Below, in pieces: positions 890 through 20,130 of a stretch of 20,369 nucleotides of DNA. How positions within the stretch are numbered: position 1 is the stretch's first letter; each line of letters begins with the position of its first letter. Under the pieces are notes generated by a model, which ran no database searches, was not told the DNA's origin, and saw only the letters and a program-made list of their open reading frames with translations. Origin of the DNA: a virus; IMG/VR virus record IMGVR_UViG_3300013126_000313, positions 1 through 20,369 of that record, one strand, 5' to 3'. The translations under genes were made by a program, and so were the position numbers.

Positions 890-1906
890 TTAGGATTTAG
901 TATTTCCTTTGATAAATATTGAAGAGTTTATTGGTAGACTCGAGAGTGCGGGATAACCTAAAATTGGTGGTGTCCACAACACTCTGTAAGTACCTGATGG
1001 TATTGCACATCCTGAAGGTACTGTTATATTTGTTGAGGCGTTTGCTACGTCAGGTATTTCACCATTCCCGATTTCTACACCACACGCAGCTCCTTGAGCA
1101 ATATCTACAGTCATGTTAGTCATTGAGCCACCTACACCCGCCAAAGGTATCCATATTGTGTAACTATATTGGATATCTGGGTCTATATCGGAAACAGCTA
1201 TTTCAATAGTTCCGAACACATATTGACTTTGGATACATCCAAATGAATCTGTACCTGTTCCTGATGTTTGTTTTATTGTTGAAGATAGTGTAGAGACATT
1301 TGATACGAAATTTCCAACACTTCCTGTCCAACCTGAAAATTGAACGTAAGTATTCATATCTGATGTGTAGTCAACACCTGACGGGTATCCACCACTATTA
1401 CCATATCCATACCACGTAGCACCATTATCATAAAGATATTGACCCAATTCATCTTGAGATACCGAATCTAACGGTTCGGGGAATATGTATGCATAATACA
1501 AACCAGTGGATGGTGAAGGTGTATTTGTTTGTGTTGGAGTATTTGTTTGAGTTGGTGTTTGAGTTCTTGTATTCGTCGGTGTATTAGTATTAGTTGGTGT
1601 TTGTGTCGGTGTTTGTGTCGGTGTAGGAGTATATGTTGGTGTAGGTGTAGGTGTAGGAGTTCCTGTTGAGTAGACAATTACCGTTTTACTAACAGTATTG
1701 TCGTCACAACCTGGCTGATTATTTTGTATTATAAGTGTATATGATGTACCTGAAGTTGAACCTTCCAATTGAATAGTGTATCCCACAATTAATTGTGAAC
1801 GAGTAACACCACTATATAAAGCGGTAGTAGATGTTGACCCTGTATATATACTAAACGGACCTACGGCATTTGTGTCTAAAGTAAGTCTTAATATTAAATC
1901 CGTCAT
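890..1906 (-). CDS. Structural protein with Pro-Thr linker joining two domains (putative receptor-binding or fibre protein)
   Basis: This 338-aa protein has three parts. Residues 1-82 form a small beta-rich domain (motifs GPFSIY, GVTRSQLIVGY, one Cys at about 67). Residues 83-133 are a Pro-Thr-rich linker with TPTP, TQTP and TNTP units. Residues 135-338 form a larger domain rich in Tyr, Gly, Ser and Thr (starting LYYAYIFPEPLDS), with Cys near 217, 267 and 288. There is no signal peptide or membrane segment. The ATG at 1906 is preceded by AT-rich sequence with no Shine-Dalgarno. It lies between the SprB-like protein, which has the same kind of Pro-Thr linkers, and the collagen-like fibre, so a surface-exposed virion protein is likely. 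I do not recognise the C-terminal domain; a receptor-binding role is inferred from position and architecture only. Confidence 0.65.
   Translation of the reverse strand: MTDLILRLTLDTNAVGPFSIYTGSTSTTALYSGVTRSQLIVGYTIQLEGSTSGTSYTLIIQNNQPGCDDNTVSKTVIVYSTGTPTPTPTPTYTPTPTQTPTQTPTNTNTPTNTRTQTPTQTNTPTQTNTPSPSTGLYYAYIFPEPLDSVSQDELGQYLYDNGATWYGYGNSGGYPSGVDYTSDMNTYVQFSGWTGSVGNFVSNVSTLSSTIKQTSGTGTDSFGCIQSQYVFGTIEIAVSDIDPDIQYSYTIWIPLAGVGGSMTNMTVDIAQGAACGVEIGNGEIPDVANASTNITVPSGCAIPSGTYRVLWTPPILGYPALSSLPINSSIFIKGNTKS
1508..1660 (-). repeat. Pro-Thr linker tract of the 338-aa protein
   Basis: About 51 codons alternate Thr with Pro, Gln or Asn (residues 83-133). On the plus strand this reads as a GT-rich imperfect repeat of GGTGT(T/A) units. 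It is low complexity and matches the composition of the three tracts in the neighbouring 1071-aa gene. Such linkers are extended and flexible, and Thr-rich ones are often O-glycosylated in Bacteroidota; glycosylation here is inference. Confidence 0.85.
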
Positions 1907-2025: not shown

Positions 2026-5000
2026 TTAGATACAGTCACAATTGTTATGAACTGCTAAGATATTTGTCGCCCCAGGACCCGTAGTTGTTGCAATTACTTC
2101 CCAACATCCAACATATCCACTACCACCCAATGTCACATAGTCACCAACATTTACATTAATTAATGTTACAGGGTTTAAGAATACTGTGTAAATTGGTCCC
2201 GTTGTTGAACATGTTGGTTCACCTACGTTGATTTCCTGTACTTGGAAATATTGAGTAGTACGAGTAGGTGTTGGAGTTGGTGTTTTGGTATTTGTGGGTG
2301 TTATAGTTGGAGTCGGTGAAGGACATGGATATGATGACTGACAGGCAGTACAGTTGGCATAGTTTACATACATTCCCCCACTACCATCAATAGTAGGCCC
2401 ACCTCCAGATGTATTTATTATCGAATAACAACCATTAGGTAGGGTTGTTGAGGTAATATAATACGACTGTCCGACCACCAAATTACCCTGAACAACCGGC
2501 ACATTTATTAATGTATATAAAGTTCCATCACAACATCCACTTATACCATATGTGTTTGTAGTATCAGTAGGTGTTTGAGTTGGTGTAATAGTCGGTGTTG
2601 AAGTTTTAGTTGGTGTAACTGTTGGGGTTTTAGTTGGTGTTGGAGTTTGTGTGGACGTGTTTGTCGGTGTTGGAGTTGGTGAGGAACTAGGTGAACAGTC
2701 AACGTCATAATCGATATATAATCCCAAAACAAATTTTGTGTTTCTCAATGGGTCTTCATCTCCATTACAATCAGATACTAAATTTACCGTATTGTTTACA
2801 AGATTAATATTATACGATTGGAGTGGTGTTGGTGTAAGTCCACTTAAAACACTATCAATAGTACTAACCCAAAGATTATCAGAAGGATATTCATTTAAGG
2901 TGGTTGCAGTAAAGAAAGGACCTTCATATGTAACACCACTCAATTCAATTTGATAATTGAATACCGCAGTGTTTAAAGTACACGCAGTTGCACCCGTACC
3001 AACAATATCAATATATCCTTCATTTAACATCTCATACATTCCACGTTTTGTCCCAAATGTCGTTATAAATTCTCTTTCACAGATAGTGGAAAGTTGGTAT
3101 CCACTAACAATCTCAGCACCACACACAACAGTTGTAGTTGTAGTTGCAGAACATCCGTTAGCATCCGTTACTGTCAAACTGTAAGAACCACCAGTAAGTC
3201 CTGTTATTGTTGTACCTGTTTGTCCATACGGAACATTGTCAGACCAATCTAACGTGAACGGTGCAGTACCTTGTAGTATGGTGGTTGTTATAATTCCATC
3301 ATTACCGTACACACAACTTGTTGGTGTCAACACAAATTGTACACCAGTTGAACCCGTAATATTGAAATAATCAATAATTGAACATCCATCAGCATCGGTT
3401 ACGGTAACATTATATGTTCCAATTGATAAATTATTGAATGTGTATGCTGTATTTGGGTAGTTGAGAATCTGTTGACCGTTACTCAACACATAATCAAGAA
3501 CTCCAGTATAACCCGTACCAACTTGGACCAATACAGACCCGATGTTAGAACCACAAGTTGCACCTGTAGTAGAAAGAGTCAAATCAAACTTAGGAACCGC
3601 ATTTATAATTACAGTTTCAAAATAAGAACAACCATTTGATGTTGTAACTCCAACCAAATACGTATCGGCACTTAAACTTGAAAATAAATAAGATGAGCTA
3701 TTTGTTGTAGCACTTACAGAAGCACCACTTGTTTGGGCTGAATATGAATATGTGTATGGTGGCGCAGTACCAACAACATTGATTGAAATTTGTCCGTAAC
3801 TTCCACAAGAATTTAGTGATGATGAAATGTTAGCTGAAATAAGTCCACCTTCACTAATCATTTCGACAGAACCTGTAACAATACACAAGTTAGTATCTCT
3901 TAAATAGAAACCAAAGTCACCAGCTGAAACCCCTGTAAATGTGAATGAAGTTGCCGACACACCTGAAAGTGATTGACCCGTACTTCCTGAATAATAAAAA
4001 GGTCCCGTACCTCCAGACACAGTCACAGTTACTTCTCCGTTACTTGACAAACATCCAGGTTGGACCGTAGAAATCGAGTTTACTGCAAAATTTGATACAT
4101 TTGTAACAACTGCGTTTTTAGTAGTTTCACAACCATCACCATCAGTCACTACAACTGAATATGTAGATGCTGATAATCCTGTAATAGTATCGGTAGTTTC
4201 TCCATTTGACCAAAGGTATGTGTAAGGAGCAGGTCCTGTAATACCCGTAACTTGAATTGCACCGTTATTTAAACCACCACAATTAGGATTACCCGAAATC
4301 GAGAACCCAAAATCAAGAGCAGTAGACGCACTTACCGTGACAGTTGCTGTCGTGGCACTACTTCCTCCAAAATCAACAACCTCAGCATAATAATCACCAC
4401 TACCTAAATTTATAAATTCTGCAGGGTTTGTATAATTTGCGCCTTGATAAATTTGTACTGATTCTTGGAATAGTGTAATTGTGTACGGTAACGAACTTGA
4501 ACTACCACTGACATAGAATATTCCATTACTATCACCACAAGTCGTATCCGTGATATTAATTATCTCAGCAGACATACATCCGTCTAAAACAACGTTGATG
4601 TATTCTTCACTGTTTATACCACCTGATGAATCATTTAATCTGAAAACATATGTTCCACCACTCAATCCTGTATAACTTACAGTACCCGTGAAACCAACGT
4701 AGGGTGACAATGTACCCGGAACATCATTATCTAAAGTGTATGGAGGTGCACCACCTGACGGTGTTATTTCAATTACACCACCATTTGGGTCGGCACATGT
4801 TCCAGTAATTACAAAAGTATAACTTAGTGGATTACCTAATTCTGTTGAAGAAGGTGTAATTGTTGGAGTAACACTACTAGTTATTGTTGGTGTTGGGGTA
4901 ACCGTACTAGTAATCGTTGGTGTGGGTGTATATGTTGGGGTATATGTCGGTGTCGGTGTCGGTGATGGAGAAACCGCAACACAAGTACTAGTACCTGTAA

Positions 5001-5241
5001 TAACCCCGTTTATATCTGTAACAAATATCGTATCAGTACCTCCGGTTGATGGGTCACTTACACTCAAGTAAACTTCAAAATTTACGGCAGTAACACATCC
5101 ACCTCCTAGATATATTTGGTCCCCAATATTAAGAGGTAAACCAGGGTCCGATGAAAATCCATCATACCCTGGGTCAACACACATGCCAGCAGCACCATTT
5201 AACGATACCGCCCAATACAAATTATAATTTTGACAAGCCAT
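2026..5241 (-). CDS. Modular phage surface protein with seven SprB-like repeats, Pro-Thr linkers and Cys-rich terminal modules
   Basis: This 1071-aa protein has clear modules. Residues 1-88 form a Cys-containing N-terminal domain and 91-131 a Pro-Thr linker. Residues 144-705 hold about seven tandem SprB-like repeats (approximately 144-222, 228-303, 313-377, 392-460, 470-545, 553-625, 636-705). The repeat signature is an early Cys then NG/GxI, a PPYTY-type motif, WSNG or similar, a TITGL-x-xGTY step and an ending like VTDANGC. Residues 711-850 resemble the C-terminus of the upstream 990-aa protein. Then come a second Pro-Thr linker (853-893), a Cys module (899-967), a third linker (973-995) and a second Cys module (998-1070). 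Known: SprB repeats occur in Bacteroidota gliding adhesins. The ATG overlaps the upstream stop (TAATG), which suggests translational coupling. There is no signal peptide. Inferred role: a baseplate-attached adhesin or fibre that contacts the host. Confidence 0.75.
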   Translation of the reverse strand: MACQNYNLYWAVSLNGAAGMCVDPGYDGFSSDPGLPLNIGDQIYLGGGCVTAVNFEVYLSVSDPSTGGTDTIFVTDINGVITGTSTCVAVSPSPTPTPTYTPTYTPTPTITSTVTPTPTITSSVTPTITPSSTELGNPLSYTFVITGTCADPNGGVIEITPSGGAPPYTLDNDVPGTLSPYVGFTGTVSYTGLSGGTYVFRLNDSSGGINSEEYINVVLDGCMSAEIINITDTTCGDSNGIFYVSGSSSSLPYTITLFQESVQIYQGANYTNPAEFINLGSGDYYAEVVDFGGSSATTATVTVSASTALDFGFSISGNPNCGGLNNGAIQVTGITGPAPYTYLWSNGETTDTITGLSASTYSVVVTDGDGCETTKNAVVTNVSNFAVNSISTVQPGCLSSNGEVTVTVSGGTGPFYYSGSTGQSLSGVSATSFTFTGVSAGDFGFYLRDTNLCIVTGSVEMISEGGLISANISSSLNSCGSYGQISINVVGTAPPYTYSYSAQTSGASVSATTNSSSYLFSSLSADTYLVGVTTSNGCSYFETVIINAVPKFDLTLSTTGATCGSNIGSVLVQVGTGYTGVLDYVLSNGQQILNYPNTAYTFNNLSIGTYNVTVTDADGCSIIDYFNITGSTGVQFVLTPTSCVYGNDGIITTTILQGTAPFTLDWSDNVPYGQTGTTITGLTGGSYSLTVTDANGCSATTTTTVVCGAEIVSGYQLSTICEREFITTFGTKRGMYEMLNEGYIDIVGTGATACTLNTAVFNYQIELSGVTYEGPFFTATTLNEYPSDNLWVSTIDSVLSGLTPTPLQSYNINLVNNTVNLVSDCNGDEDPLRNTKFVLGLYIDYDVDCSPSSSPTPTPTNTSTQTPTPTKTPTVTPTKTSTPTITPTQTPTDTTNTYGISGCCDGTLYTLINVPVVQGNLVVGQSYYITSTTLPNGCYSIINTSGGGPTIDGSGGMYVNYANCTACQSSYPCPSPTPTITPTNTKTPTPTPTRTTQYFQVQEINVGEPTCSTTGPIYTVFLNPVTLINVNVGDYVTLGGSGYVGCWEVIATTTGPGATNILAVHNNCDCI
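2032..2547 (-). repeat. Two related Cys-rich C-terminal modules separated by a Pro-Thr linker
   Basis: Module A is residues 899-967 (bases 2341-2547) and module B is residues 998-1070 (bases 2032-2250) of the 1071-aa protein. Both have VG[QD] followed by aromatic/beta residues, then GC[YW]x[IV]I, then a T-x-GxG turn, and both end in NC-x(1-2)-C (NCTAC and NCDC). A third, weaker relative may be the N-terminal 88 residues (NIGDQIYLGGGC...). The linker between them is bases 2257-2325. The function is unknown; the conserved Cys suggest disulfides or metal binding. Confidence 0.6.
2563..2685 (-). repeat. Pro-Thr linker tract 2 of the 1071-aa protein
   Basis: Residues 853-893 alternate Pro and Thr with Lys, Gln, Ser, Ile and Val. 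The plus strand is a run of GT-rich GGTGTT/GGAGTT-like hexamers. It separates the domain at 711-850 from Cys module A. Confidence 0.85.
3151..4812 (-). repeat. Tandem array of about seven SprB-like repeats
   Basis: Seven protein-level repeats of about 60-80 residues lie between residues 144 and 705. The best copy spans residues 314-371 (bases 4129-4299), with NNGAIQVTGITGPAPYTYLW, then a TDTITGL step and a DGDGC end. Paired Cys recur in the copies: C149/C222, C321/C371, C397/C453, C479/C538, C563/C620, C643/C697. The copies have diverged strongly, so this is an old array rather than a recent DNA duplication. Confidence 0.75.
4849..4971 (-). repeat. Pro-Thr linker tract 1 of the 1071-aa protein
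   Basis: Residues 91-131 read as SPTPTPTYTP-type units grading into TPTITSSVTP-type units. The tract joins the N-terminal Cys domain to the SprB-like array. Confidence 0.85.
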
Positions 5242-8213
5242 TAACTACAATATATTGTTATATCAACCCCCACGTTTAATTGTAGAGTTTTATCAGTAAA
5301 GTCTGCCATACATCCCGTGTTACTTACAGTAATTACTCCGTTAGTAATAGAATAGTTCAATCCCCACACATATAAATCAGAAAAATTAGAATTTAACCCA
5401 TCAATCCATTGTTGATTGGTTGGTGCGTCGGTTGCCGTGTATCCTGTAAAGAAAGGTTCTTGAACTAATATGTCGTTATCTAATCTCAAATCTGTATACC
5501 AAATAGATGTTACAGAATTTAAATCACATTGGCTCGTAGTAAAACCACTCAATTCAATCAAACTATTAATTTGATTATACAATACTTGTTGGAATGTGGT
5601 TCCCGATGTTTCAGATGTAGATTCTGTCCATGGATAAATACCACATTGAAGTGTTTGGTCGATACAATCGTAACCAAAAAGTTGACCTTCTAATGTACAA
5701 GGAATACATGGGACAGGAACAATCTCACAACCTCTTTGTCTTCTCCAAACGACTTTTTGTCTATGAAACTGTGAGTTTTCAAAACGAGTACCAGTATTCC
5801 AAAGTGTAGATGCCGGAATCATTTGTTCAACCAAACGAACCCAATAGTTTCCAAGACCCAAAGTGAAGTCAATCATCTTTTGGTATGTGTATTGGTTAGA
5901 AGGAATGTTTACGGTTTGGTCAGACTGAAGATAGTTCCAATAAATTTGTTGTAATGTTGGATATCCACCACCTTTACCATCATTGATTGTCTGTCTGTTT
6001 CTAACATTAATCATGTTCTTCCAAAACGTCTGAGCAAATTCAAAGAATGTCTTTTGTTTTGGGTTTGGTTGGATAACCGTGTTATCAATACCTCCCTGAC
6101 CTGTAGTCAATCCAGACGCAGGAATTGGGTAGTTGTATTTTCTACTCATATCCCAAACATCGTATTCAAGACCTTGTCCCATGTTCATGAACAGGTCTAC
6201 GTTTTTGGCATTTAAAACTAACTTCTCGTTGGATACTGCATAATATGCGTTGAATCCACCTTGTGTTTTTCTAAGACCAATCTCATCGTCGGTCCATGAT
6301 TTCTTATTATCTATGGTTTGAGTTAAATCAAAACCAAGTGTCATGTAAGGGAAACTTCTAAACCTATCAAAATATTTTTGTCCGTAAGTATATGGTTGTA
6401 ATACCGTTTGAACATCTGGATTCTGACCAGTGAATGTTGATTCAGTTACTATAGTATCCTGTTCGGCTCTATGTTTTGGTGTTTGTTCAAACCAACCTGA
6501 ACCTTTTTCGAAGAAGTAATTATCACCATTTATTGGTGCCTTTGGATATCCTTGTTCATCGACAGGATAGTTTTCTCTTTCAAAATCAACATCTTCAATT
6601 TCGTAATCAATTGTGAAACCAGTATAAGTTACACCTTGAATTTTGTAAGTATCTTCAGGGTCTAAGATTGGTACAACCTGACTATAGGTTCCACCTGTCA
6701 ACTGAACAAACTGTTCAGCGAACTGAGTCATATTAATTTTTGAATCGGCTAAATAAATTGTTTCATTAAATTCTACAAGAGCTTGTGGTGCTCCAACCAT
6801 TCTCATAATAAACTCAACAGATTTTCTTGTACCTTTTGACCTGAATAACCAACCTGAATTTATAATAAGTTTTCTGTAGTACTCATAGTTTAACTCACTC
6901 GGAGTCAAATCTCTTGTCATGCCAGGATATATCGATTGATTCTTTGTTCCAAAAACTGAAGTCAAGAAATCATCGTTCGTAATTGGCGAAATATTAACTT
7001 GATAACCTAAAGTGTATGCCAAGTTTACAAGAAGCTGTGAAGGAATATCATCTTTGGGTACGTAATTTACTGAAGTGATATATGCCAAAGCATCGATGAA
7101 CTTTTTAGTCTCATCATATGCCCTACCATAAATCTGTATTACCTTTTCAACACGATGGTCTTCAGTGTCAAATTCTTTAAATGAACCAGTGATTAAAAAT
7201 CTACTAATAAGATTTGTCTTGAAACTATCTAAAGCAACCGCAACTTCATTAACCTGTTCAAGGTAACTATCAAATGCACGATTTCTAATATCTAAGTTCC
7301 AAGTACCGTCCAAAGGCCAAGTAACCGTCTGATTAGCAATGTAAGTTTGTCCATTGTCATTTTCTCTTGGGTACTTAAAGTATGCCGTGTACCTCGGAGT
7401 GACCATTCTATTGAGAAGGAACTTTTCAACTTCATCAAATGGTTCATCAAATGCAACTTCCGTTTCAAATAAATTTGGTCTCAACACAATCGGTAACGTT
7501 GATGATGAGTTACCCGAGAAAGGATTACCCTCAACGACAACTTGTATAGTACCAGCACTTAATGATGATGACGGTGTAAAATCTATTACTTTATATTCTG
7601 TTTCAAAGTCACCACTAATGAAAAGAGCGTATTTAAGATATTCTCTTGTAAAATTTCTAAGCGGTGAAAACTCAAAAGGTCTAACCGATAAATTTCTATC
7701 AGCATTTGTTGAGTAATCAATATCAAACGGATTCTTAAATCTTGTTACATCAATCTCAAAAGTAGTTTCATTTTCAACAACATCAAAAGAGATATTGTTT
7801 GCAGTGTTAGCCGTGGTATAATCATAGTAAATTTGGTCAACAACCAATCCCGCAGGAAAATAGTTAATAATTTTAATAATTGATATCTCTAATCTCTTTG
7901 CCAACGAACCATATAACGAAAAGTTCGTTACATTAGAAATGTCGTAATTAGGATAAACAGAATATTGTTTTGCTAATATCGCCCTTGATTGTTCGATATT
8001 ATCAATGTTTAATGTGTCTAAAGTAAAAGGGTCCGAAAATACACCAATATCAAATCTTCTATTAACTTTTTCAACAACAGAAGTCGTAAACTCAAAGTTA
8101 GCCTGAGTCAATCCACCTCCGTTAACAAGTTGAAAACCAACTAAATCGGGAGAGAATGTTTGGTCACCTGAGTTCGGTGCTGGTGGATACCTATATTTTA
8201 GAGAATTCGCCAT
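5241..8213 (-). CDS. Baseplate wedge protein with tail-protein-I-like (gp7-type) segment
   Basis: This 990-aa protein is likely a baseplate wedge subunit. The clearest evidence is residues 375-476. A helix ending PSQLLVNLAYTLGYQV is followed by the YYRKLIINSGWLFRSKGTRK segment (445-464) and then SVEFIMRMVGAP. This matches the pattern of P2 gpI-type tail proteins, in which a P-x-x-LL-x-x-LA-x-x-LG helix precedes a KGT-x-x-x-(I/V)-x-x-x-(L/M)-x-x-x-G motif. Known: P2 gpI corresponds to T4 gp7, which joins two gp6/gpJ copies to form the wedge core. The other ~890 residues are not recognised. Near the C-terminus there is a Cys cluster (C829, C836, C839, C850, C857), then a domain at about 866-990 that recurs in the next protein. 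Both ends overlap neighbours by TAATG junctions. Its size is close to T4 gp7 (1032 aa). The tail-protein-I call is good; strict gp7 orthology is less certain. Confidence 0.65.
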   Translation of the reverse strand: MANSLKYRYPPAPNSGDQTFSPDLVGFQLVNGGGLTQANFEFTTSVVEKVNRRFDIGVFSDPFTLDTLNIDNIEQSRAILAKQYSVYPNYDISNVTNFSLYGSLAKRLEISIIKIINYFPAGLVVDQIYYDYTTANTANNISFDVVENETTFEIDVTRFKNPFDIDYSTNADRNLSVRPFEFSPLRNFTREYLKYALFISGDFETEYKVIDFTPSSSLSAGTIQVVVEGNPFSGNSSSTLPIVLRPNLFETEVAFDEPFDEVEKFLLNRMVTPRYTAYFKYPRENDNGQTYIANQTVTWPLDGTWNLDIRNRAFDSYLEQVNEVAVALDSFKTNLISRFLITGSFKEFDTEDHRVEKVIQIYGRAYDETKKFIDALAYITSVNYVPKDDIPSQLLVNLAYTLGYQVNISPITNDDFLTSVFGTKNQSIYPGMTRDLTPSELNYEYYRKLIINSGWLFRSKGTRKSVEFIMRMVGAPQALVEFNETIYLADSKINMTQFAEQFVQLTGGTYSQVVPILDPEDTYKIQGVTYTGFTIDYEIEDVDFERENYPVDEQGYPKAPINGDNYFFEKGSGWFEQTPKHRAEQDTIVTESTFTGQNPDVQTVLQPYTYGQKYFDRFRSFPYMTLGFDLTQTIDNKKSWTDDEIGLRKTQGGFNAYYAVSNEKLVLNAKNVDLFMNMGQGLEYDVWDMSRKYNYPIPASGLTTGQGGIDNTVIQPNPKQKTFFEFAQTFWKNMINVRNRQTINDGKGGGYPTLQQIYWNYLQSDQTVNIPSNQYTYQKMIDFTLGLGNYWVRLVEQMIPASTLWNTGTRFENSQFHRQKVVWRRQRGCEIVPVPCIPCTLEGQLFGYDCIDQTLQCGIYPWTESTSETSGTTFQQVLYNQINSLIELSGFTTSQCDLNSVTSIWYTDLRLDNDILVQEPFFTGYTATDAPTNQQWIDGLNSNFSDLYVWGLNYSITNGVITVSNTGCMADFTDKTLQLNVGVDITIYCS

Positions 8214-9122: not shown

Positions 9123-10208
9123 TTATATTGTTGTATTAATCTTGAAGAAGCCGTAGCCGTATCGAGCAAGGTCTCCTAAGTTATCGACCTCTCCAAGTCG
9201 TTGTAATCCTTCGAAAGCCGAAATCTTACCCCTATCAATAAATATTTCAGTTTGGATTTCTGGAGAAGAAACTATATCAAGTAAAACTTCTTGTTTTGTA
9301 ATTGCACTTGCAACGATATCATTAGAAGTCAAACCTGATGATTGGCTAAAGAATACTGTGGACCCATCAGGGTAATCATAATAGTCCACACCATTTATTG
9401 TGTATGCAGTATATGACGTACTCATTTCATTAATGACACCAAATACTTGCCCATTTTTGAATATAGGAACGTTAGTTGCATACTTTATTGAACCATAATT
9501 TTTTAGGTCCGTAATTTGTGACTTGGTAAATCCTGATACCGTAAATGGTACCGTAGTCCAAGTACTTGATACTTGAGCTTCAACAGTATTTTCAGAATCA
9601 CCCGTAAAAATAAAATTGGCATTAATTGGTATACCTGACCAGTTTCCACCACTCTGTGTGAAAGTACAAGTCCCTTGTGGGTTTGGAATTGTTGCTCCTG
9701 TTACCGGAACAGGTAATGTCTTTGTAACTTGAGTTGTCCCCCACGGATTGTTTTGAGTGAGGCTTATTTCAAAATCACCCGCATATGAATAAGTGTGTGA
9801 TAAAAACTGAGGTGCAGTTTCATTCAAGACCTGAACGGGTGAACCATCCCCCCAATTTAGAATGTAATTTGATAAAGATAGAAACTTTCTGAATTCAATA
9901 TCAGATGTATTATAAACTAAAACAGTGTACGGTGAACCTGTGGATGCTGAAAATATAAAATTATTAACAACCTCTTTCTGTAAAATAAATCCATCAAAAG
10001 GTGTGTAAAATCCTAAATCATTGAAACTGTTTTGAAATATCACATCTATTGTTAAACCCGTCAACAAACTACTTCCATTTGTACCCCCCGACAAAATACT
10101 TGTCATTGCAGAATAAACCCCAAAAGTATTTGTCTGATATGTTTCAGAAATGATATCAGTACTCAACACCTCAGGTGATATTCTTATCTTGTAAATTTCA
10201 CTATTCAT
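9123..10208 (-). CDS. PKD-domain baseplate-operon protein, 361 aa
   Basis: Residues about 110-166 carry a PKD-type Ig-like fold: YILNWGDGSP (WGDG at 119-122), then SHTYSYAGDFEISLTQ (HTY at 138-140) and a VTKTL strand. Known: PKD domains are common in surface and adhesion proteins, especially in Bacteroidota, and mediate protein or carbohydrate contacts. The N-terminal 100 residues and residues 170-310 are beta-rich and unrecognised. The C-terminus has a distinct charged helical motif, RGKISAFEGLQRLGEVDNL, followed by GDLARYGYGFFKI, which looks like an anchor or docking segment. Its start overlaps the upstream stop (TAATG) and the next gene starts within four bases. It is probably a baseplate-attached structural protein; the exact role is unknown. 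Confidence 0.65.
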   Translation of the reverse strand: MNSEIYKIRISPEVLSTDIISETYQTNTFGVYSAMTSILSGGTNGSSLLTGLTIDVIFQNSFNDLGFYTPFDGFILQKEVVNNFIFSASTGSPYTVLVYNTSDIEFRKFLSLSNYILNWGDGSPVQVLNETAPQFLSHTYSYAGDFEISLTQNNPWGTTQVTKTLPVPVTGATIPNPQGTCTFTQSGGNWSGIPINANFIFTGDSENTVEAQVSSTWTTVPFTVSGFTKSQITDLKNYGSIKYATNVPIFKNGQVFGVINEMSTSYTAYTINGVDYYDYPDGSTVFFSQSSGLTSNDIVASAITKQEVLLDIVSSPEIQTEIFIDRGKISAFEGLQRLGEVDNLGDLARYGYGFFKINTTI

Positions 10209-17751: not shown

Positions 17752-19590
17752 TTACGAGAAATCGACAGTTTTAAGGTTCTTAATTCTAACCTTAATGTCT
17801 TTGTTAGGAAATCTAACTTGATAAATCTGTGAAGGTTCAGCAAAAATAGTGTCATCAACCAAAGCAATTTCTTTAGTCGCACTATTCACATATCTCTGTG
17901 AAGTTTCAGATGACGAGTATTGACCCCCCACTTTATTGAATACTTTTAAATCCGTTACAGAAATCACACCAGCAACGTCTTGAACTTGACTTCTAATCTC
18001 TGATATGAATACGTTACCACCCATCTCCCTAAAGACAGGACTCATCAATGTTTGTATTTTATCAATTACTCTTGTGATTACCTCACCTTGGTTCTGTGCC
18101 GCATCAACCACTACTGAAATATCGAATTCCAAATCAATAACTTGAGCAACATTGATAGAAATATAATCATTTATCATTCTATAATTTGATAAGTAATTAG
18201 CTAAGTTTGTTTTCAATGTGTTAGATACCGTCTGAGTTAATGAACCAGTGGAGTCGTATGAAACAATATTGATATTGATTTTGTTATCTTCTTCTGTGAT
18301 TGCAACTTTTGCAGGTGCTCCAAACTTACCAGGCATTTTTCTAATCAAAGCGTAGTAGTCATTTACAGTTACCGCTCTGTTTTGAGATGCGAAGTTAAAC
18401 GTAACCATGTTTCTAACTTCTTCTATGTTTGGTTGGTTAGCCCCACCAATCGCAGCTGTTACGTTGTTCACTCTAAGTGAATTTACAACTTGTTGGTTGA
18501 TATTTGCTGAAGGTCCGTTAACAAAGAAATTAACAGTACCCACTTGATTGATTGTATTAACACCGATGTTTGAAACTGTACCACCACCAATTCTGTACTG
18601 TACAAATAATGTGGTATTGGCTTTCACTGTTTTACCTAAACCAATATTGTTTTGGTAATCTTGAATTCTAAGAGGTACACCAGTTCTTGAGAATTGAGCT
18701 AATTGGTCGTCAGCCGTAACAGTAGCATTACCAAATTGAACTCTTAAGAATCCTTCAGGGGTATATTCACTAATGAATCTTAATTCAGTTTCAATATATC
18801 TACCAACTTTAATTCCTGGTCTGTCTGCGGGTTTTGTTGGGTCCTCAATGAAAACTCTACTTTCCGCCAATGAATCAACTTCAAACCATCTGTCAGGTGA
18901 ATTGATAAATTCAGAGTATGTTGGGATTGATTGAAACGATGTTCCGTCTTTTTGAATAACAGACGTAATTCCGATAATGTTTTTCTCAGGTAAGAAAAAT
19001 TCAAAGAATGGCTTAATATCTGCAGGTGTAATAACCTTCTTGTACACTTTTGTAATTCCATTAACCACAACCTCTCTTTTGGTGATTGTGTAATTTAATA
19101 GTTTACCGTTTGAATCAAAGTTAGGTATTTTTGTTTGGTTAGGATATCCTTCACTATTATACTGTGATGAGAAGTCAATATCGTTAACATTTTCAAATGT
19201 TTGTCCTGCACCAACTACTTGTGAACCAGCTCTTAGAATACCCAAATATCTTGTGTCTTCTTGGTCACCAAATGCTGGTACTGTAATTGCAAAATCACAA
19301 AGAGCAACTGATGGTCTGTTACCGGGTATTTTCAAACCGTAAGTTCTTGCAATGTTGAAAATTGAAGAACGTTGTTGTGCGTATTGAAGAACAGTCTCTT
19401 GAATACTTCTGTCCATGTGATAATGTAAGTTATCACCTATGGCTGCGTTTAAATCTAAGAATACTGAATATACTGAAGCGTCATTGAAGTTATCAATAAG
19501 TTCAGGATAATACTGTTGAGTATAATTGATGAGGTCCTGACGTAGTGATTCAAAATCCCTGTCTGCGTATGATATTCTTCTTTGTGCCAT
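17752..19590 (-). CDS. Baseplate wedge subunit, gp6 / baseplate J-like
   Basis: This 612-aa protein matches the gp6/gpJ wedge family in length (T4 gp6 is 660 aa) and in pattern. The N-terminus (FESLRQDLINYTQQYYPELI, then FNDASVYSVFLDLNAAIGDNL and a Gln/Arg-rich helix) is the typical baseplate-J start. A GGGTVSNIGVNTI segment near the middle is followed by the family's characteristic RNMVTFNFASQNRAVTVNDY, then YALIRKMPGKFGAPAKVAI. The C-terminal half has the usual alternating helix/strand dimerisation region (VFREMGGNVFISEIRSQVQD, GVISVTDLKVF). Known: gp6 forms the continuous inner ring of the baseplate and binds gp25 and gp7. It starts five bases after the gp25-like stop, so the two are in one operon. 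The start MAQRRISYADRDF is clear. No odd truncation is seen. Confidence 0.92.
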   Translation of the reverse strand: MAQRRISYADRDFESLRQDLINYTQQYYPELIDNFNDASVYSVFLDLNAAIGDNLHYHMDRSIQETVLQYAQQRSSIFNIARTYGLKIPGNRPSVALCDFAITVPAFGDQEDTRYLGILRAGSQVVGAGQTFENVNDIDFSSQYNSEGYPNQTKIPNFDSNGKLLNYTITKREVVVNGITKVYKKVITPADIKPFFEFFLPEKNIIGITSVIQKDGTSFQSIPTYSEFINSPDRWFEVDSLAESRVFIEDPTKPADRPGIKVGRYIETELRFISEYTPEGFLRVQFGNATVTADDQLAQFSRTGVPLRIQDYQNNIGLGKTVKANTTLFVQYRIGGGTVSNIGVNTINQVGTVNFFVNGPSANINQQVVNSLRVNNVTAAIGGANQPNIEEVRNMVTFNFASQNRAVTVNDYYALIRKMPGKFGAPAKVAITEEDNKININIVSYDSTGSLTQTVSNTLKTNLANYLSNYRMINDYISINVAQVIDLEFDISVVVDAAQNQGEVITRVIDKIQTLMSPVFREMGGNVFISEIRSQVQDVAGVISVTDLKVFNKVGGQYSSSETSQRYVNSATKEIALVDDTIFAEPSQIYQVRFPNKDIKVRIKNLKTVDFS

Positions 19591-19595
19591 TTACA

Positions 19596-20060
19596 TTAAA
19601 TATTGATAATAACGAAATCCTTACTATTAAAGGTGCTGTCTGTTATAGTATAATCAATTCTTATTTTTGCTGTATAGTCAGCAACACCAGTTCCTGGTAC
19701 TCTATAAATACCACTAACACCTATTTGACTCATATTCAAGTCTCCAATGAGTTCAAGTTCTTCGGTGTATGGCGTAATTGTAATATCATTCAAAACCAAG
19801 TTTGGTAAAAACTCATCTACAGATTGTCTGATATCAGCCTTAATAGCTTCAAACGATAAACCGTCCATTGGTTCAAAAATGAATTCATAAATTCTTGTAC
19901 CAAAATTTGGTAAATAATATCTACTACCCTTTCTTGTTAAAATCAAATGTAACAAGTCAGTTCGGATTTCTTCTTCGGGTGTTTGAGATAATGATAGATA
20001 CTTTCCGTCTTGACTCTGTCCGAACGGAAAATTAATACCATATGTTTTACCATCTGCCAT
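19596..20060 (-). CDS. Baseplate wedge / sheath initiator, gp25-like
   Basis: I choose ATG 20060 (MADGKTYGINFPFG), giving 154 aa. An upstream TTG at 20099 in the same frame would place the start within the terminator's T-run and is unlikely. Family evidence: EEEIRTDLLHLILTRKGSRY followed by YLPNFGTRIYEFIFEPMD, which lines up with T4 gp25 (TTRKGSRPFDPEFG, then LFENM), and then a VD-EFLPNLVLNDITITPY strand. Known: gp25 of T4 (132 aa) sits on the wedge core with gp6 and gp7/gp53 and nucleates the first sheath ring. The EPR motif conserved in T4 gp25 (NYEPRI) appears as FLPNL here, so Glu and Arg are not kept at that place. The first 15-20 residues are an extra N-terminal segment. It is the first gene after the terminator and likely heads the baseplate operon. 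Confidence 0.92.
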   Translation of the reverse strand: MADGKTYGINFPFGQSQDGKYLSLSQTPEEEIRTDLLHLILTRKGSRYYLPNFGTRIYEFIFEPMDGLSFEAIKADIRQSVDEFLPNLVLNDITITPYTEELELIGDLNMSQIGVSGIYRVPGTGVADYTAKIRIDYTITDSTFNSKDFVIINI

Positions 20061-20097
20061 ATTACATAAATATATTCCTATTATTTTTTTTAGAAAC

Positions 20098-20130
20098 AAA
20101 AAAACCCGACAAATTACTTGCCGGGTTTTT
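20098..20130 (-). terminator. Rho-independent terminator after nrdA (works in both directions)
   Basis: The hairpin AAAAACCCGGCAAG...TTTGTCGGGTTTTTTT on the minus strand pairs CCCG with CGGG (bases 20105-20108 and 20122-20125). The stem continues past one A-C mismatch with CAA/TTG and extends outward with five A-T pairs. A run of seven T follows on the minus strand, at bases 20098-20104. The opposite side also ends in T5. It lies 27 bases after the nrdA stop and should separate that transcript from the baseplate operon. Confidence 0.88.

Follow-up and report, generated by a model that had tools for sequence, protein, structure and literature searches.

A tail-operon protein with a fixed array of seven SprB-type repeats: a probable virion arm with exchangeable tips in large phages of Bacteroidota

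The window, by which we mean the whole stretch of DNA analysed, is the complete 20,369-bp record and consists almost entirely of a single minus-strand operon. The SprB-repeat gene (2026..5241) lies on the minus strand, as do all of its parts, and is an open reading frame encoding a protein of 1071 amino acids. The protein begins with a variable N-terminal module (residues 1 to ~95) and a Thr/Pro-rich linker (to ~136), which together occupy 4834..5241. Seven diverged repeats of ~80 amino acids then span residues 141-707 (window 3121-4821), namely R1 (residues 141-222, 4576..4821), R2 (223-306, 4324..4575), R3 (307-384, 4090..4323), R4 (385-467, 3841..4089), R5 (468-550, 3592..3840), R6 (551-631, 3349..3591), and R7 (632-707, 3121..3348). 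The original prediction had placed these seven repeats at 3151-4812, slightly short at both ends. The array is followed by a conserved alpha/beta domain (residues 712-852, 2686..3108) and by a C-terminal extension (2026..2685) composed of Thr/Pro linkers and two small Cys-containing modules.

Directly upstream, the open reading frame of a 990-amino-acid tail-operon protein (5241..8213, minus strand) shares one base with the SprB-repeat gene, its stop codon and the following ATG being joined as TAATG; the translational coupling suggested earlier is thus borne out. Wedge-family genes in the same operon also confirm the expected setting in a phage structural operon. These are a gp6-like baseplate wedge gene (17752..19590, minus strand; phrog_219, E 1.5e-17) and a gp25-like baseplate wedge gene (19596..20099, minus strand; phrog_261, E 1.7e-16), both at the operon's upstream end and far from the SprB-repeat gene. 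The 990-amino-acid protein itself is not recognisable as a baseplate wedge: it has no Pfam or NCBIfam match, its PHROG matches are weak and concern only families of unknown function, and hhalign gave no match to T4 gp5-gp12, gp53, wac, or P2 W/J/I/H, the targets being single sequences of low sensitivity, against which even the gp6-like gene gave just a weak match to T4 gp6. Its structural model is poor (pLDDT 45.8), and an RGT-containing stretch may be reminiscent of P2 gpI-type proteins. As the protein belongs to no recognised family, its description as a baseplate wedge coupled to the repeat gene is half right, and the tail location proposed below is drawn from the operon. Three further genes accompany these: a downstream gene (890..1906, minus strand), which encodes 338 amino acids with a Thr/Pro-rich linker, possibly a further appendage protein; a gene at 2-868 that runs off the window and probably encodes another fibre, its collagen-like tail (GSSGTSGSS) matching Pfam Collagen below the cut-off (E 1.9e-4); and a gene at 9123-10208 for a 361-amino-acid tail-operon protein whose PKD match is likewise below threshold (E 2.5e-4).

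The repeats belong to the SprB-repeat family, as had been predicted. PF13573 matches the 1071-amino-acid protein at E 3.9e-12 and 46 bits, against a Pfam gathering cut-off of 28, with its best match in R3; it gives five separate matches on the window DNA and is present in 23 of 24 relatives at E <= 0.01. Local alignment of repeat against repeat exceeds that of shuffled copies (z >= 3.3) in 19 of 21 pairs, the exceptions being R2-R4 and R2-R5, which rules out chance as the source of their likeness. The PPYTY/WSNG-type motifs described earlier are seen most clearly in R3, R5, and R7. The paired cysteines hold for most repeats only: in the window phage R2 has no second Cys, and relatives do not conserve the first Cys of R7. 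A profile built from the phage repeats alone finds tandem arrays in bacterial loci fetched by motif, at a median spacing of 76 amino acids, so the full unit is common to both, beyond the Pfam core.

Structure prediction of the core yields consecutive beta-sandwiches and then an alpha/beta domain (pLDDT 81.6); with a pTM of 0.34, the inter-domain geometry of this model is not reliable. In agreement with the Ig-type fold anticipated for them, the repeats are predicted to adopt Ig-like beta-sandwiches. The solved structures closest to the core model are pieces of GhpA, at 16-19% identity. Structural realignment of the core returned mostly fibronectin/Ig-type chains together with one GhpA fragment (Z 9.7), which supports an Ig-like fold and not a special tie to GhpA.

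The alpha/beta domain that follows the repeats is homologous to the C-terminal domain of the coupled upstream protein (residues 864-990, 5244..5624, minus strand), with an hhalign probability of 97.7% and E 2e-12. Each of the two profiles retrieves the other protein, and the models of both proteins display the same order of helices and strands in this domain. From this paralogy with a tail-operon protein we infer that the domain attaches both proteins to the tail, and we refer to it as the probable docking domain. The arrangement invites comparison with T4 Hoc and Hoc-like proteins, in which a C-terminal attachment domain carries a string of Ig-like domains (PMC10385173). The window protein could accordingly be a head decoration, its C-terminal domain holding the Ig-like string on the capsid, with no part in the tail. 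This layout is the same, and the best-matching PHROG families are named Hoc-like head decoration, with matches that cover the Ig-like part only. We regard such a capsid role as quite improbable, however, since the attachment-like domain has its homologue in the baseplate operon, in the very protein whose gene is coupled to the SprB-repeat gene.

Genes related to the 990-amino-acid upstream gene occur in at least 80 viral contigs. Where the contig continues past this gene, a SprB-repeat-type gene follows in nearly all cases, a count that leaves aside the two most distant relatives (L069 and L075). A search with the core retrieved at least 481 confirmed stretches, and the longest contigs of the family reach 318-326 kb. 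No cultured relative of the window's upstream protein or of its core turned up among 50,697 phage records; the sole match is the 642-kb LR756502, by way of its repeats. Microcystis phage Mel-JY01 contains a stretch (L306:12001-12387) that weakly matches (E 1e-4, 27.9%) residues 364-485 of a homologue of the 990-amino-acid protein (L128), and may be a distant cultured relative of the upstream gene. A 318-kb relative carries 23 tRNA genes, nearly all in one cluster (G005:C1:65121-87996, L170-L171).

Across this family the array is constant. Exactly seven repeats are found in 86 of 88 distinct core proteins, and 64 of the 88 genes overlap the upstream gene by the same single nucleotide. When the 168 repeats of 24 phages are compared with those of other phages, every one finds its best match at its own position in the array. 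In a tree with 78 bacterial repeats, the phage repeats likewise cluster by position, in groups apart from the bacterial ones; the alignment has few columns, and many branches are unresolved. A single origin of the phage repeats is not rejected (p-AU 0.65, a weak result given the few columns). Orthology holds for each position of the array, which rules out a recently captured host adhesin. Their putative source is probably a Bacteroidota surface protein, acquired before this phage lineage diversified.

The ends of the protein behave differently. Comparison with relatives that share 80-90% identity in the upstream DNA shows similarity ending precisely at the start codon of the SprB-repeat gene and, where the contig reaches so far, returning in the linker or core. 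Five such phages possess three unrelated N-termini: that of the window, one found in L008 and L009, and one found in L007 and L011. Moreover, a module of the window's C-terminal extension (residues 899-972) has a homologue in the N-terminal extension of L011. The Thr/Pro linkers may act as the seams at which recombination occurs. The small modules carried on Thr/Pro-rich linkers would be what is exchanged and the likeliest tips for receptor binding; they precede the repeats in the window lineage and follow the docking domain in the window phage and many other relatives. Relatives consisting of the core alone (706-714 amino acids, without any extension) are common, and in these the tip must be elsewhere.

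Such core-only proteins are compatible with a second reading, in which the repeats themselves form the binding part through weak sticking to glycans of the host surface or the environment, and the tips are secondary. Weak glycan sticking has already been proposed for Hoc and other phage Ig-like proteins, whose fold the repeats are predicted to have, and R1-R7 evolve faster than the upstream gene (69-82% identity between the window and L011, compared with 91%). Nevertheless, their constant number and their conservation at each position point to a structural role for the repeats, and the part that is exchanged is the extension, so we consider binding by the repeats unlikely.

None of 134 tail-operon proteins has a signal-peptide-like start by a simple rule that does flag secreted phage homologues, and the window protein has no CHU_C or Por_Secre_tail match at E <= 1. 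Por_Secre_tail matches in 7 of 24 relatives lie inside the repeats, and we rejected them as T9SS domains, attributing them to cross-matching of Ig-like folds. Separate SprB-repeat proteins that are predicted to be secreted are encoded by some of these phages. In 290-kb relatives, one gene (L309:6374-8893, G006:C1; the frame is also present in G007 and G008) combines a signal peptide, SprB repeats, and a CHU_C T9SS sorting domain. A similar set is divided among three short genes adjoining tail genes in another relative (L311:3886-6322, G002), each with a signal-peptide-like start. LR756502 encodes a protein of 1670 amino acids with a signal peptide, 13 SprB repeats, a PKD domain, and a CHU_C domain (L183:10381-15393); this is a host-type secreted protein, unlike the tail-operon family. 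Two further phage genes (L310:4238-5848 and L312:4421-6532) have signal-peptide-like starts and end in a Por_Secre_tail T9SS sorting domain. Cryophage is a reported case of a phage that encodes T9SS cargo (PMC7468147); our literature search found no description of SprB-repeat T9SS cargo in phages.

Several observations bear on the host. In a 318-kb relative, Shine-Dalgarno sequences precede 4.1% of genes compared with 3.4% after shuffling, resembling the Polaribacter phage control (4.2 vs 4.2) and differing from T4 (45.6 vs 9.7). The Bacteroidota-type promoter motif is enriched in the same relative (103 vs 60 +- 8). The controls are mixed, as crAss001 is intermediate with some Shine-Dalgarno signal and the Polaribacter phage has no promoter enrichment. 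Searching bacterial genomes with the entire core gave no match; a DNA pattern of the repeat motif did match. Across 84,980 prokaryote genomes, 117 stretches contain the motif PYTYLWSNGET; of the 80 matches listed, 79 have titles naming Bacteroidota, and the title of the remaining one reads just 'bacterium'. Taken together with the T9SS sorting domains encoded by several of these phages, the lack of a Shine-Dalgarno signal, the promoter motif, and the distribution of the repeat motif make Bacteroidota very likely the hosts.

The original prediction also raised a special link to the gliding adhesin SprB, with the phage mimicking or binding the host's moving adhesin layer. The repeat family is the same, the hosts are likely Bacteroidota, and some such phages also encode the secreted SprB-repeat proteins with T9SS signals described above. 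Yet the SprB repeat is a general module of Bacteroidota surface proteins, the phage repeats form position-specific groups, and the putative virion protein carries neither the signal peptide nor the C-terminal T9SS domain that SprB-type adhesins have. A common repeat does not imply binding, and nothing here indicates gliding of the host. The special link is therefore not upheld, and we hold engagement of the gliding layer to be very improbable. A broader idea, to which we assign a low likelihood, is that these phages use the SprB-type vocabulary on both sides, with a virion arm for adsorption and, in some of these genomes, T9SS-secreted SprB-repeat proteins on the infected cell, the arm and the secreted proteins interacting with each other or with host surface adhesins. 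If this were true, the secreted proteins might, for example, exclude later phages or change adhesion.

We favour, as the probable reading, a virion arm, most likely of the tail, that has a fixed length and exchangeable tips and belongs to large phages infecting Bacteroidota. Its seven SprB-type Ig-like domains, whose number and order are fixed, would form a rod of defined length; the arm would be a structural part of the virion, most likely at the tail baseplate, to which the docking domain would fix it, with the tips presumably binding receptors. Among the options first considered for the repeats, that of a fibre module used as a spacer fits best, refined here to a fixed seven-domain arm with swapped tips. 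Such an arm would likely serve for host recognition in these large phages, a widespread and apparently uncultured group, and in it a host surface-protein module would have been turned into a virion component of fixed length. The docking domain common to the two proteins and the swapping of tips at the start codon lead to concrete predictions as to where host range is encoded.

A literature search found no paper on SprB repeats in phage virions. The UniProt entry A0A6J5LD72, 'SprB repeat' [uncultured Caudovirales phage], comprises 714 amino acids and is named by its domain alone, without a described function; it aligns over the whole core (33% identity, E 1.3e-55) and is probably a member of the seven-repeat tail-operon family. 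The best solved structural match to the phage repeat chain, GhpA, is the grappling hook of Aureispira sp. CCB-QB1, which is secreted by the T9SS and forms a heptamer on the predator cell (PMC11205867), whereas the phage protein lacks an export signal. Hoc resides on the capsid and bears three variable Ig-like domains; the phage protein has seven fixed ones and an attachment domain in common with a tail-operon protein. SprB of Flavobacterium johnsoniae is a 669-kDa adhesin secreted by the T9SS (PMC9127263). Together with many other Bacteroidota surface proteins it belongs to the same family (PF13573), with a unit of ~76-80 amino acids in tandem. Bacterial SprB arrays range from 1 to 36 repeats per frame, whereas the phage protein keeps to a fixed seven, bears a docking-type domain, and lacks an export signal.
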